From Oryzias latipes (lineage: Eukaryota > Chordata > Actinopteri > Beloniformes > Adrianichthyidae), in NCBI RefSeq assembly GCF_002234675.1, contig NC_019864.2, positions 10,564,129 through 10,628,128 on the forward strand: a DNA stretch of 64,000 bases. Direction: 5' to 3'. Positions within the stretch are counted from its first letter, which is position 1, and every line of letters starts with the position of its first letter. This document shows positions 9,849 through 42,718 of this stretch, piece after piece. Made by a program: the position numbers and the translations under genes. The notes below the pieces were generated by a model, which was not told the DNA's origin, searched no databases, and saw only the letters and a program-made list of their open reading frames with translations.

Positions 9849-12800
9849 ATGATGATTTTCCTTCATCTCTGTGTCCTCTACTTGATGGTTCTAAACTCCT
9901 TTAACCAAGGATGGGCTTTTCATTACCAACCCAAACACCCATATCTACCATACAAATATGGTAAGTTTAATTTCCATAATTTTTTTTCTGACATAGATAA
10001 ATGCAAGGGTTTAAATTTTTTTCATTCCATAAATACATCAGAAATGGAAAACTAGCTGAGAGCACTGAAATTTTGTTCAAGGACGTGTTTTTTAATGTTG
10101 AGAAAACGGGGGGGGGGAAGCAAGAAAGCCGCATGACATAAAGTAACCTTAAATTAACTGTTTTATTTATTAATTATTGGGTAATTAGCAACATATAGAG
10201 TAACGAGGTTACATTTTATGAACATTGTGTGTGTAAAACAGCAGGGTAAAGGTGGAGCTCGCGTTCTGCGGACACATTCCACTGTCATTACCAGAACAGT
10301 TAAAGCTACAATGCATACCCTAATATATTCCTTTCTCTTGTTTTTATAGAATTAATAAAGTAAATTTAGCTTGACTTCTCTTTTACTAAGTTCTACTATT
10401 TGACAAAAGTAAAATAATGTGATTTTGCAGCAAAACGTCTTCTTTAAAAAAACAAAACAAGATCAGCCTTAAACAATCTGAATGATCAGCTGCTTTGGTT
10501 GACCACAAAAGCAAAGAGCCTCATCTACCCAATTACAAATATTCCCTAACATTCAACTTTAATCAAAACCACCATTGCAAAATAGTCTGACGTTTTGAGG
10601 TAAGAGTTAACTTTAAAAAAGGTATTTTATTTGCTCAAATTTGAGGTTTTTCTCAAATAAAGCAGATCAACTAGTGAGAAGAGAAAATCAGAAATTTTGC
10701 AGATAAATTGCACTTATCCAATGACATTAAGTTACTTGCAAAATCTTTTTTGTAAATAATTTTGACTTTTCACCAGGACTGCAGACATTGTTCAAGGTCA
10801 TAAGAAAGTTATCTAAGTAAATAGCTTGTGTATCCGCTAGTCTGAATGTCTAAACACTTTTTTATAATCTCCTAAGTCCTTCATCTGCTTACTTTTGCAA
10901 GGACAAGAGACTAGGAAAAAAGAAGAAAACAAAAATATAACAAAATCAACGAATTTAATAAGCCAGGGGGAATCTTACCGACACGTGTAAGCTCCCTGAG
11001 AACCCTCTTCTCTATCCTCTTTCCTCTGAGATAAACAAGTACACTGCTCTCTTCTAGAGTTTGCAGACTGAAGATCTCTCTTATAATATGCAAATTTCAT
11101 CAAAAACATGACATATGACCAAATCTAAAGATGTATTTTACAATTGGATAAAAGGTAAACAAAAACCTTCCTTATTCATCGATTGATTAGCAATACAACC
11201 ACTGCCTGAAACTTAGCACGAGGCTGAGTGGGACAGGTCTTAGGAAAGGCAGCAAAGTGCTTATTTTCAAAGTAAATAAATGCAGCCACAAGAAAAAGTA
11301 GAAACCTATCATTTTATTTTCTTTAAATCTGATGTTGATTGTTTATTTTGAAGGATCGTCATTGGTTTCTACCTGGGTAAATGGCATTCATCATAGGGTC
11401 ATTTGTCCATAAATTTATGAGTGTTGACACCTATTTCTCAAAAAACATTTATCACACAATGTTAGACTTTGTATGTCTATGTGGCTTTACAAGCAAAAGA
11501 AAGAAAAAGATGGAGTCAAAACTTTAATTAGTTTTCAGTACTTTTGTTTACTTTGATAAAACGGCCACTTTCAGGTTGGTTTAAGTTTCTGTGTTGGTTC
11601 TTGACCTCTGATGAAGGCGGGAAATTTTGATACAAACAAACATGATTACAATAAATTAATAAGTCTATGAAGACTCTCATTCATCCAGGTTGGTTCCATT
11701 GTAGTAGGTTTAGGGGATGTCATCTGGACTTGGTTTTTAAAGTTAGAAGACGTTTCACCTCCTATCCAAGAGGTTTTGTCAATTCTGAATTAGCTGGTCG
11801 AAGAGCCAGGTATATATGCGCTAATGGGGTAAAGCCGCTTGAGGTGTAGCGGCTTTACCAACATCGCAGAGCCAACCCAAGTGGACCTGAGTCTGCAGTG
11901 CACTTCCACCTGAAGGCCACAAACCACTCGTTCGAGGACAGTGAAGTCCGAATTCTAGCCAGAGAGAAAGGATGGTTTGAGTGAGGATAAACCTTCTCTT
12001 AATAAGAATGGTGGTCTCAGGTTTATTCTTCCATCCATCTACGGCAGTGTTTTGAAACCTAAACAAACCAAACCACTTCCATCTGAAGTGGAAAGCTGAA
12101 AGAGATGACCAGTTTGGGGAGGGAGTTACTGGCTCCCCAACGCCCAGCTGAGGACAAAGGACTCTTAATGACCCGAAACCATGTAGGCTAAGTTGATAAT
12201 ACCATCCAATTTCAGGTCTTTGACATTGACTATATATGAGAATTGGACTGAGTGACTCCTTCCCCCTATAATTCTAAATAAGAAGTACCTGCTGGCTCCA
12301 AGAAGTCGAGGTCTTATAGACTTCTATAGAGAAAAAAACAGCTATTACTCAGTCATATGTTAGAATAACAATTATTACTCAACTTTTTTCTGCAGTTTTT
12401 TTAATCTTATTTCAAGTTATTCAAATTATAAACTGAGTAATCACATGGGTCAATAACAGTAGGTGTTCTTATGTCATATACAGTAAACCCTTGTTTTTCG
12501 CGGGGGTTACATTCCAAAAAGAACCCGTGATAGGCAAAATCCGTGAAGTAGAAACTTCTATTTTATTTTACAATTATTATACAATTAAAAACTCTATTAT
12601 GCATTGAAAAGAAAGAACAAACCATTTTACAGGCTCAAGCATTTGTTTCACAAATAAAAGTACTTTAGAAACTTTTTTTCAACAAAGAACTTCTGTACTG
12701 AATTGTCAAATAACAATTTGAATTATCAATGTGAACAGAAGGCTTCAAAATCGCGGAGATAAGCCCCGCCCACCACGACCCGAGTATTGGATTAAACGGG

Positions 12801-40900: not shown

Positions 40901-42718
40901 TACCGCCACCTACAGGAAAATAGCCACTTTGAAGACTTTCAGTCGGGGTTTAGACCTCACCACAGCACGGAAACTGCACTAGTTAGAGTCTCTAATGACT
41001 TGTTATTGGCCTCAGAAAAGAGACTATTCTGGTCCTGTTGGACCTCAGTGCAGCCTTTGACACTATCGACCATAGTGTTCTACTCCAAAGATTAGATTAT
41101 GACGTGTAGATCAGAGTATCTGCCTTCCAGTGGTTTGAATCCTATTTATCCGATAGGTATACCATCCAAATAAAACACTTCGCTGCCAAAATGCAGGACT
41201 GCTTGTGGTTCCTAGAATTAGTAAAAGTACGGTTGGAGGTAGAGCGTTTAGTGATCAAGCCTCTATTTTATGGAATAAGCTCCCAGCTCATGGAAGAGAG
41301 GCCGACTCAGTTTCTACATTCAAAGTTGGACTGAAAACATTCCTCTTTGGACAGGCTTATTGTCAGAATAGCTAGTATTCAGAGATTATTTAACTTAATA
41401 TTAATGTGTTTCAATTAAACTTAACAATAGCTATTTGTTTTTTGTAGGCTGCAAGTAATTTTGAAGCTGGGGTAACTATGGTGCATTGGGGTTCTGTCTT
41501 CATTTCTCATCTACTTCTACCCTCCTTCTCTCCTCTATTCTTGATTATTATTCATCATTTAGTTCTCCATGCCTCTGTTTGGTGCAGTGTGATCCATGTA
41601 CTGTCCCTCTTTCCCTCTCCCCTCCTGGGGAGTGGGAGTGCTTCCAGATTCCAGTTGGCTCATCCGTGCCCCTGTACCTGACTGTGTACCTTGTATCTGG
41701 CTCGCCTCTACTACTGCTCCTACACCTGGCTGTGGATCCTGCCTTTGGCTCGTCTCGCGGCCCCGGCCGTCCCCCCAACTCCATCTGGATGAAGCTTGTC
41801 TTCTGGACTTAAAATATGTAGTTGTAGGGTTAGATAAGCTAATTCTTTTCTATGAGTTCTGGTAATCGCCTGTCCATCGTGGGGGAGGATCCCTCCTTCA
41901 TCTGGACACCTCTGAGGTTTCTTCGTTTTTTCCGGAATCTGTTTTTTTAGGAGTTTTTCCTTACCATGAAGGGGGGTCTAAGGGCAGGGATGTCCAGTTT
42001 AGCTTAGTCAGTTTGTTAGTTCAATTTAGTATTTTCCTATTGAATTCTATGTATTCATGATCCTTTTGATTTTATGTTTTACTATCTATACTATCTATAC
42101 TATACGAAGCCCATCGAGACGACTGTTGTTGTGAATTTGGGTTATAAAAATAACATTGAATTAAAAATTGAATTGAATAGAGTTTTTAACTCCTCTTTAA
42201 CTTCAAGGAAACTCAAAAGACTCTTTAGTTAGTAATTATAAAACAATGTTATGAAATTCGTTTTGGATATTTTTTTTTAACAGACAGAAGCAGGAAAAAC
42301 AACCAAACGGAAATAGACTGTACAGTTAAGTCTATGAATTCTAAAATTTCCAAATCCAAAAATTTAAATTTTGTAGAATTTGTCAATATTTTAATCCAGT
42401 AGCTGTGTATAGATGGACAGAGGAATTAGAACATCCCTTTTTGGTTTTCGTCACTTTTCAACAGGCAGTAGATTTTTGTTATTTAGTTTTTAGTTTTATT
42501 TGTAAGATATATTTGTCAAAATGCCAGAAGAAAGGACAATAAACCTTACCATATTCATGTGAATAATGTGCATAGTCTTTTGAGGAGCGCTGATCCAATC
42601 CTTTGGATGCATGCTGATCCTTTTTGTTTGGATCTGTTGTCGTGGAAGCTCCAGCAAGGTTGTAGACACTTGGAATCAACAAGCTGAAGATGCTGAGCAG
42701 AAGACGCTTCCCGATCAT
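34561..42718 (-). CDS. Gene C: secreted collectin-like C-type lectin, inverted copy of gene B
   Basis: Coding exons on the minus strand are 42718-42550, 36851-35361, 35150-35094 and 34943-34561. Lengths equal gene B's (169, 1491, 57, 383 bp) and all splice sites are intact. The signal peptide is the same, with changes at TTTD for TATD and HASK for HGSK. The neck is identical in sequence. The stalk carries substitutions (for example GPHG for GHHG, GNRGPP for GNMGPP, GMPGP for GIPGP) but no frame break. Intron 1 holds three insertions not found in B. The two genes lie tail-to-tail about 8 kb apart. Expected role is the same as gene B's. Confidence 0.88.
35361..36851 (-). CDS. Gene C collagen exon (497 codons)
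   Basis: Same length as gene B and open throughout. It keeps the [16 protein letters not shown] break (RTRR at 35550-35539), the GPQNLKGE single-Gly loss and most GPC triplets. One GPC present in B is GPSGPP here, and GCPGPKG is GYPGPKG, so cysteine number differs between copies. The long plus-strand frame across it (35250-36497) is a mirror artefact of Gly/Pro codons. Confidence 0.9.
37170..37345 (+). mobile_element. SINE 3'-half remnant in gene C intron 1
   Basis: AAATTGTCCCTAAGTGTGAG, GTGATGGACTGGCAAACC and TGGGATAGGCTCCAGCTACC ... GATGGATGGATAG are the 3' half of a common fish SINE-like repeat. Absent at the matching site of arm 1. Confidence 0.6.
37470..39258. mobile_element. hAT transposon, 1789 bp, in gene C intron 1
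   Basis: Ends CAGTGGCGGTTCTAC and AAAAACCGCCACTG share an 11-bp inverted repeat. The flanks are a perfect 8-bp duplication GATGGCAG (37462-37469 and 39259-39266). The empty site is present once in gene B intron 1 (21340-21360, CTGCCATC). No transposase is seen. A second MITE sits inside. Confidence 0.95.
38258..38624 (+). mobile_element. MITE family 2, copy 2, nested in the hAT element
   Basis: Ends TGTTACGG and CCGTAACA are a perfect 8-bp inverted pair. The body matches the complement of 4556-4973. Confidence 0.7.
39280..42177 (+). mobile_element. L2/Rex-like LINE, 2.9 kb, antisense in gene C intron 1
   Basis: Flanked by a 5-bp duplication TAGAG (39275-39279 and 42178-42182); the uninterrupted site is in gene B near 21325. 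Fragments encode endonuclease ([20 protein letters not shown]) and reverse transcriptase ([40 protein letters not shown]). Frames are broken, and the catalytic YADD region and most of the C-terminal half are deleted. The 3' tail ends in GAATT repeats. An (AAGT)n run is at 40216-40238. Confidence 0.88.

Follow-up and report, generated by a model that had tools for sequence, protein, structure and literature searches.

Within a stretch of 64,000 nucleotides of the Oryzias latipes genome (hereafter the window; RefSeq assembly GCF_002234675.1, contig NC_019864.2, positions 10,564,129 to 10,628,128 of the forward strand), we analysed three genes that join a very long collagen stalk to a C-type lectin domain, an arrangement reminiscent of the collectins. 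In the assembly searched, which comprises 734,051,031 bases in 25 contigs, the window corresponds to C6:10,564,129-10,628,128. Three open collagen frames were found in it, at 13809-15611 and 23785-25467 on the plus strand and at 36927-35293 on the minus strand, and the gene models, which are DNA-based predictions, were built by reading the flanks of these frames. The three models, g1 (plus strand, 9849-17627, 765 amino acids), g2 (plus strand, 20775-26155, 699 amino acids) and g3 (minus strand, 42718-34561, 699 amino acids), are complete and follow a common four-exon plan: a hydrophobic start in exon 1, the whole stalk in exon 2, the neck in exon 3 and the lectin domain in exon 4. All nine introns are of the GT-AG type and all nine are in phase 1.

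Exon 1 of g1 (9849..9960) carries the start codon ATG, a hydrophobic N-terminus and a short linker, and ends at the phase 1 donor ATG/GTAAGT; the corresponding exons of g2 (20775..20943) and g3 (42550..42718, minus strand) have the same content. In each case, the hydrophobic N-terminus was judged by eye to be a candidate signal peptide. The entire stalk of g1 occupies 579 codons (13843..15579), bounded by the acceptor TGCAG and the donor CAG/GTGACA, and those of g2 (23861..25351) and g3 (35361..36851, minus strand) occupy 497 codons each. The neck exons contain 22 codons in g1 (15991..16056) and 19 codons in g2 (25561..25617) and g3 (35094..35150, minus strand). The lectin domain and stop codon are found at 17245..17627 in g1, at 25773..26155 in g2 and at 34561..34943 on the minus strand in g3, whose domain is 98% identical to that of g2.

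A Pfam scan covering full-length g1 and the carbohydrate-recognition domain (CRD) of g2 identified Collagen (E 2.7e-84) and Lectin_C (E 1.6e-9) in g1, with no C1q domain, and Lectin_C (E 1.6e-11) in the g2 CRD, where an OPA1_C match below the cut-off was disregarded. When the neck and CRD of g2 were searched against the PDB, the 30 best rows were all mannose-binding proteins, SP-A, SP-D, collectin-11 and conglutinin, non-collectin C-type lectins appearing from row 31. These data bear out two claims of the original prediction, namely that three genes combine a hydrophobic N-terminus, a single collagen exon, a neck of 19-22 residues and a C-type lectin domain, and that this architecture is of the collectin type. 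The genes lie far beyond what chance would produce, because three frames of 1.5-1.7 kb have Gly at every third residue, because each has matching neck and lectin exons behind it, all in one phase, and because g2 and g3 differ, along the longer arm of the duplication that carries them, by 0 gap columns in coding sequence and 10 in non-coding sequence.

The Gly-X-Y collagen domain, a collectin feature, is present in all three proteins and interrupted in each. In g1, runs of 47/36/66/5/4/23 triplets add up to 181; in g2 and g3, runs of 46/92/19 triplets add up to 157. Including the breaks, the Gly-X-Y span is 565 residues in g1 and 486 in both g2 and g3, equivalent to stalks of about 162 nm (g1) and about 139 nm (g2 and g3) at 0.286 nm per residue. 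The collagen of SP-D has about 59 triplets, and SP-D-type stalks are split over exons. The predicted threefold excess over the SP-D arm was thus supported (157-181 triplets vs 59). The stalks are not continuous, the runs being interrupted and a 12-residue break lying near the C-terminal end. As g2 and g3 are near-identical copies, the locus encodes two stalk types and not three.

How the stalks reached this length may be read from their repeats. In g1 and g2, the TRF periods within the stalk were multiples of 9 in 35/35 rows tallied, which, taken alone, is expected from any Gly-X-Y coding repeat. The longer tandem units, 81 bp x 3.2 with 83% matches in g2 and 135 bp x 2.6 with 74% matches in g1, are a better sign that the stalk may have grown by in-frame tandem duplication within one exon. 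A fourth collagen exon, broken by stops and a frame change, was observed at 3408-3810 on the plus strand of the window, and no neck or lectin exon was found near it.

The 12-residue break near the C-terminal end of the stalk lies at 15285..15320 in g1, at 25138..25173 in g2 and at 35539..35574 (minus strand) in g3, as derived from the gene models. It holds the sequence R-S-P-R in g1 and the furin-type R-T-R-R in g2 and g3, so that the two stalk types share an R-x-x-R break at an equivalent position. This is the sole R-x-x-R of the g1 protein; g2 and g3 have three each, the other two overlapping in the collagen sequence RGPRGPR. After the break, the stalk continues for 19 triplets in g2 and g3, and in g1 for 4 triplets, a 3-residue break and a further 23 triplets. 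Cutting at this site would leave a head side of 205 (g2) or 238 (g1) residues, and so, going by the motif, cleavage could possibly free a head of nearly the size of mannose-binding lectin (MBL).

The lectin head was compared with known collectins by aligning the CRDs of g1, g2 and g3 with those of rat MBP-A, human MBL, SP-D, SP-A and collectin-11. A C-terminal group III C-type lectin domain in a single exon, another collectin feature, is present in the models, and its identity to MBL is 27-28%. We take the five principal calcium and sugar ligands of MBL to be E, N, E, N and D. None of the five was retained in any of the three genes (E->Q, N->G, E->T, N->R, D->V), all three CRDs carrying QPG and WRV where collectins carry EPN or QPD, plus WND. 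Around the presumed auxiliary site, ITDE has N in place of its D and the D that precedes the cysteine has become G; the position of the E in TEG is filled by E or D, and the D following EPN is conserved. A one-residue insertion also precedes the cysteine downstream of the WND position. The usual sugar site is thus absent from these heads, and the "lectin" label of the original prediction is not supported at the level of the binding residues.

Two further collectin traits were looked for in the three proteins. The N-terminal cysteine-rich segment is absent: in g1, Cys8 lies inside the hydrophobic start and the next cysteine, Cys61, inside the collagen, and in g2 and g3 the first cysteine, Cys74, is already within the collagen. 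The motif GKxGP, with Lys in X, which we take to be the MASP-docking motif of the lectin-pathway collectins MBL, CL-10 and CL-11, gave 0 matches in the three proteins. In MBL, Lys55 of the stalk is reported to be essential for MASP binding (PMC5717261). Loss of all five calcium and sugar residues, together with the lack of GKxGP, makes both calcium-dependent sugar binding and complement activation unlikely for g1, g2 and g3. The description "built like a collectin" stands; we file the genes as collectin-derived rather than as collectins because two of the features tested, the sugar residues and the N-terminal cysteines, are missing.

We then considered the relatives of these heads. In a CRD tree of 11 rows, g1, g2 and g3 formed one group (99/100), and a search of the genome with the g2 CRD (25 candidates scored) gave 7 matches with E of 0.01 or less: the trio, then collectin-11 at 25% identity, then three weaker matches. 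Just three CRDs of this kind were thus found, in agreement with the proposal that they make up a separate group. As this was the one fish genome covered, calling that group a fish subfamily would be too strong. The collectin-11 of this genome, identified from its PDB match and located on contig C22, has a stalk that is spread, as read by eye, over at least three short exons. When the human MBL CRD served as query, there were 34 matches; collectin-11 ranked first, and the trio took ranks two, three and five with alignments that cover positions 2-118 of 119 at 28% identity. Candidate MBL orthologues on C3, C11 and C16 were rejected, being tetranectin-type by eye with no collagen seen. Among those of the 34 matches that were identified, no clear MBL orthologue was present; one may exist among the others, which make up most of the remainder and include short matches, covering the final third of the domain, with up to 58% identity. 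In Fugu, MBL was not found (PMC514892). Large clusters of C-type lectin domains were observed on contigs C18, C16 and C24 (151 matches reported, the best 150 of 459 candidates scored). In viral contigs, the pattern was matched 3 times and no relative was confirmed; phage records yielded no match. From the exon plan and the scores, we infer that g1, g2 and g3 descend from an MBL-type collectin.

The original prediction also implied that a giant single-exon helix is rare, and the genome argued otherwise. A genome-wide collagen search, in which the best 150 of 1341 candidates were scored, gave among the matches listed 12 distinct collagen frames of at least 400 amino acids, three of them the window genes. 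Of the other nine, five carry C1q (5/5 checked), and their single-exon helices extend over 451-460 residues and are interrupted in a common pattern, a length and pattern that we take to be traits of type VIII/X collagens; the remaining four were judged by eye to be low-complexity Gly-rich frames resembling minisatellite repeats. The long single collagen exon therefore has a precedent in these five C1q-type collagens. Among the matches listed, g1, g2 and g3 alone had a lectin exon downstream of a long collagen exon, and it is this pairing of a giant single-exon helix with a lectin domain that is the unusual part. A search of the literature, limited to titles and the starts of abstracts and with most subscription journals outside its coverage, found no collectin with such a stalk.

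The g2 and g3 genes are a recent inverted duplicate. A large inverted duplication, 20065-26800 / 33912-43449, carries them tail to tail. Its long arm, 23765..26800 (plus strand) with its partner at 33912-36947 (minus strand), spans 3.04 kb at 97.9% identity, and a second arm around exon 1, 20065..21322 (plus strand) with its partner at 42178-43449 (minus strand), spans 1.28 kb at 92.7% identity; intron 1 measures 2.9 kb in g2 vs 5.7 kb in g3. In the exon-1 arm, coding sequence differs by 1.8% (3/169) and non-coding sequence by 6.9%. In the long arm, the 1,931 aligned coding columns are accompanied by 0 gap columns and the 1,100 non-coding ones by 10, and the differences amount to 2.0% in coding and 1.6% in non-coding sequence. 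By these last two values, this arm is either too young for constraint to show or was homogenised too recently.

Between g1 and g2, synonymous divergence (dS) was 0.147 in the lectin exon, 0.77 in exon 1 (30 codons with 9 identical residues, the alignment being uncertain) and about 1.08 in the stalk, where the alignment is also uncertain, and the neck was saturated. The difference in synonymous changes between CRD and exon 1 gave a Fisher P of 0.0007 on rounded counts. Similarity of the lectin exons does not extend past the acceptor tract on one side or the stop codon on the other, the introns, neck, stalk and 3' untranslated region having diverged, and within the exon the differences are patchy: 1-3% at bases 1-200 and 261-340, and 20-23% at bases 201-260 and 341-383. 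This is the picture of a lectin exon homogenised between g1 (17245-17627) and g2 (25773-26155), as expected from gene conversion restricted to that exon. Like the R-x-x-R break and the inverted duplication of g2 and g3, this feature was not part of the original prediction.

The surroundings of the genes contain an MDFI-family exon at 53070-53480 (minus strand) of the window and, outside it, forkhead exons (L020 954-1263, minus strand) and a CBM21 gene (L025 3316-4128, plus strand). We take this order, on assumed orthologue names, to be that of MDFIC-FOXP2-PPP1R3A at human 7q31 and not that of the 10q collectin loci. Transposon pieces were recognised at 19315-19674 (Tc-type transposase helix-turn-helix), at 21953-22315 (Myb/SANT-like domain), at 43899-44825 (zf-RVT-like match below the cut-off) and at 49475-50068 (ALKBH8_N match in an apparent reverse-transcriptase frame). 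The region 44800-46900 is GC-rich (up to 66% GC), has long open frames on both strands and is partly repeated at 27237-27922. To the left of the window, L023 6711-9172 and L022 835-1859 (minus strand) form a long minisatellite with several frames open and a HTHLTITHPYTPYN-type repeat.

Taken together, the above findings led us to propose that three genes derived from an MBL-type collectin have enlarged their stalk exon and lost the calcium and sugar site, and that they encode a secreted homotrimer of about 140-160 nm acting as a spacer or matrix collagen, with a hinge near the head; we give this whole statement a probability of roughly 0.55. The starting point would have been a four-exon MBL-type collectin gene with all introns in phase 1, whose single collagen exon was lengthened in situ through in-frame tandem duplication until it held 157-181 triplets. 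Once deprived of its calcium and sugar site, the lectin domain could still act with the neck as the nucleus for triple-helix folding and make up a knob that binds protein or matrix. The product would then be a long extracellular spacer or matrix collagen and not a complement-activating sugar sensor, and the R-x-x-R break near the head could serve as a flexible joint, possibly also as a proprotein-convertase cut freeing an MBL-sized head.

Several observations weigh against this proposal. In the CRD tree, the trio joined MBL, SP-A and SP-D weakly (35/87), vs collectin-11 and the tetranectin-type domains, and its branch was very long (5.27). The human MBL query does not single out the trio, the fourth match being a domain on C3 at 34% identity. 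The neck exon, which in collectins encodes an alpha-helical segment that trimerises, is short at 19-22 codons, non-canonical C-type lectin-like domains can still bind glycans, and the g2/g3 dN/dS of 0.77 in stalk and CRD shows no clear constraint. The splice signals of exon 2 belong here too. Scored with a hand-typed weight matrix, its donors reached 6.6 bits in g1 and 7.5 bits in g2 and g3, while internal donors at or above the threshold of 6 bits numbered 5 (g1), 11 (g2) and 10 (g3), each offset by a multiple of 3; a GGT glycine codon gives a phase 1 donor. The acceptor pyrimidine tracts are weak (0.60 in g1, 0.67 in g2 and g3) and were matched by few internal AGs: 3/150 at 0.60 in g1, and 2/102 in g2 and 1/106 in g3 at 0.66. 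A cut-off of 0.73 left 1, 0 and 0 internal AGs in g1, g2 and g3, and the real acceptors fail it too. Because the real sites are weak and comparable internal donors and acceptors exist, shorter stalks produced by alternative splicing are possible, and the internal-donor forms would remain in frame.

The same splice data would suit copies that are decaying or unexpressed, or a collagen exon that is mostly spliced out, so that no giant stalk is made, and the broken collagen exon nearby and the dN/dS value point the same way; yet three intact frames, canonical splice sites and the absence of coding gaps between g2 and g3 weigh against it, and we regard this explanation as unlikely. It is about as improbable that the locus encodes two-part collectins, in which a collagen of about 120-135 nm and an MBL-sized trimer would be separated by a convertase-type R-x-x-R hinge. 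On cleavage, a trimer made of 19 or 27 triplets, the neck and a non-sugar lectin head would be released, so that a matrix collagen and a soluble collectin-like effector would come from one gene, whose stalk length in-frame alternative donors could also adjust. Less credible still is a single locus counted twice by the assembly as g2 and g3: 3.0 kb at 97.9% identity would fit, but the inverted orientation, the 92.7% identity of the exon-1 arm and the unequal first introns (2.9 vs 5.7 kb) would not, and g1 is distinct regardless.

Function could also differ from our proposal. A working calcium-dependent pattern-recognition collectin with a long reach, its head binding microbial sugars and its arms cross-linking or agglutinating, would agree with the collectin-type CRD and architecture and with lectin exons kept alike among the copies; with 0/5 principal-site residues, the extra residue after WND and neither GKxGP nor an N-terminal cysteine cluster, we consider it improbable. 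The alternative that comes closest, though we still doubt it, is a short-chain network collagen in function, of the type VIII/X style, in which the lectin domain replaces C1q as the trimerising head and the product assembles into the sheets or filaments of a matrix, egg coat, skin or mucus. Its one-exon helix of 486 or 565 residues would be near the 451-460 of the five C1q-type collagens, but the 46/92/19 break pattern is unlike the one these share, and the phase 1 introns, separate neck and CRD exons and collectin-type head argue for another origin. In function this alternative overlaps the collectin-derived spacer that we favour; it is in origin that the two differ. If expressed as modelled, g1, g2 and g3 would have the longest collectin-type stalks known to us, on a head devoid of the sugar binding that names the family. 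In this one lineage, a collectin would then be seen to have become a collagen-like spacer, in a genome that showed no clear MBL orthologue among the matches identified, and this would bear on the apparent absence of MBL in some fish.

Among known systems, MBL (MBL2, a group III collectin) stands close to g1, g2 and g3 and was the best PDB match. Its four-exon plan, which we assume to be signal, collagen, short neck and CRD in one exon, is the same as theirs. They differ from it by their 157-181 triplets, by having no N-terminal cysteine cluster and by lacking the calcium and sugar residues; MBL has about 20 triplets and a cysteine-rich N-terminus (PMC6272597). SP-D, conglutinin, CL-43 and CL-46 are also long-stalk collectins, but with stalks about three times shorter, and SP-D retains the EPN and WND that our three genes do not. 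The collectin-11 of the same genome, the nearest other CRD to g2 at 25% identity, has kept EPN and divides its stalk among at least three short exons. The type VIII/X short-chain collagens, tested as collagen plus C1q, share the one-exon helix, of 451-460 residues; they have their C1q head in the same exon and a break pattern different from that of g1, g2 and g3.

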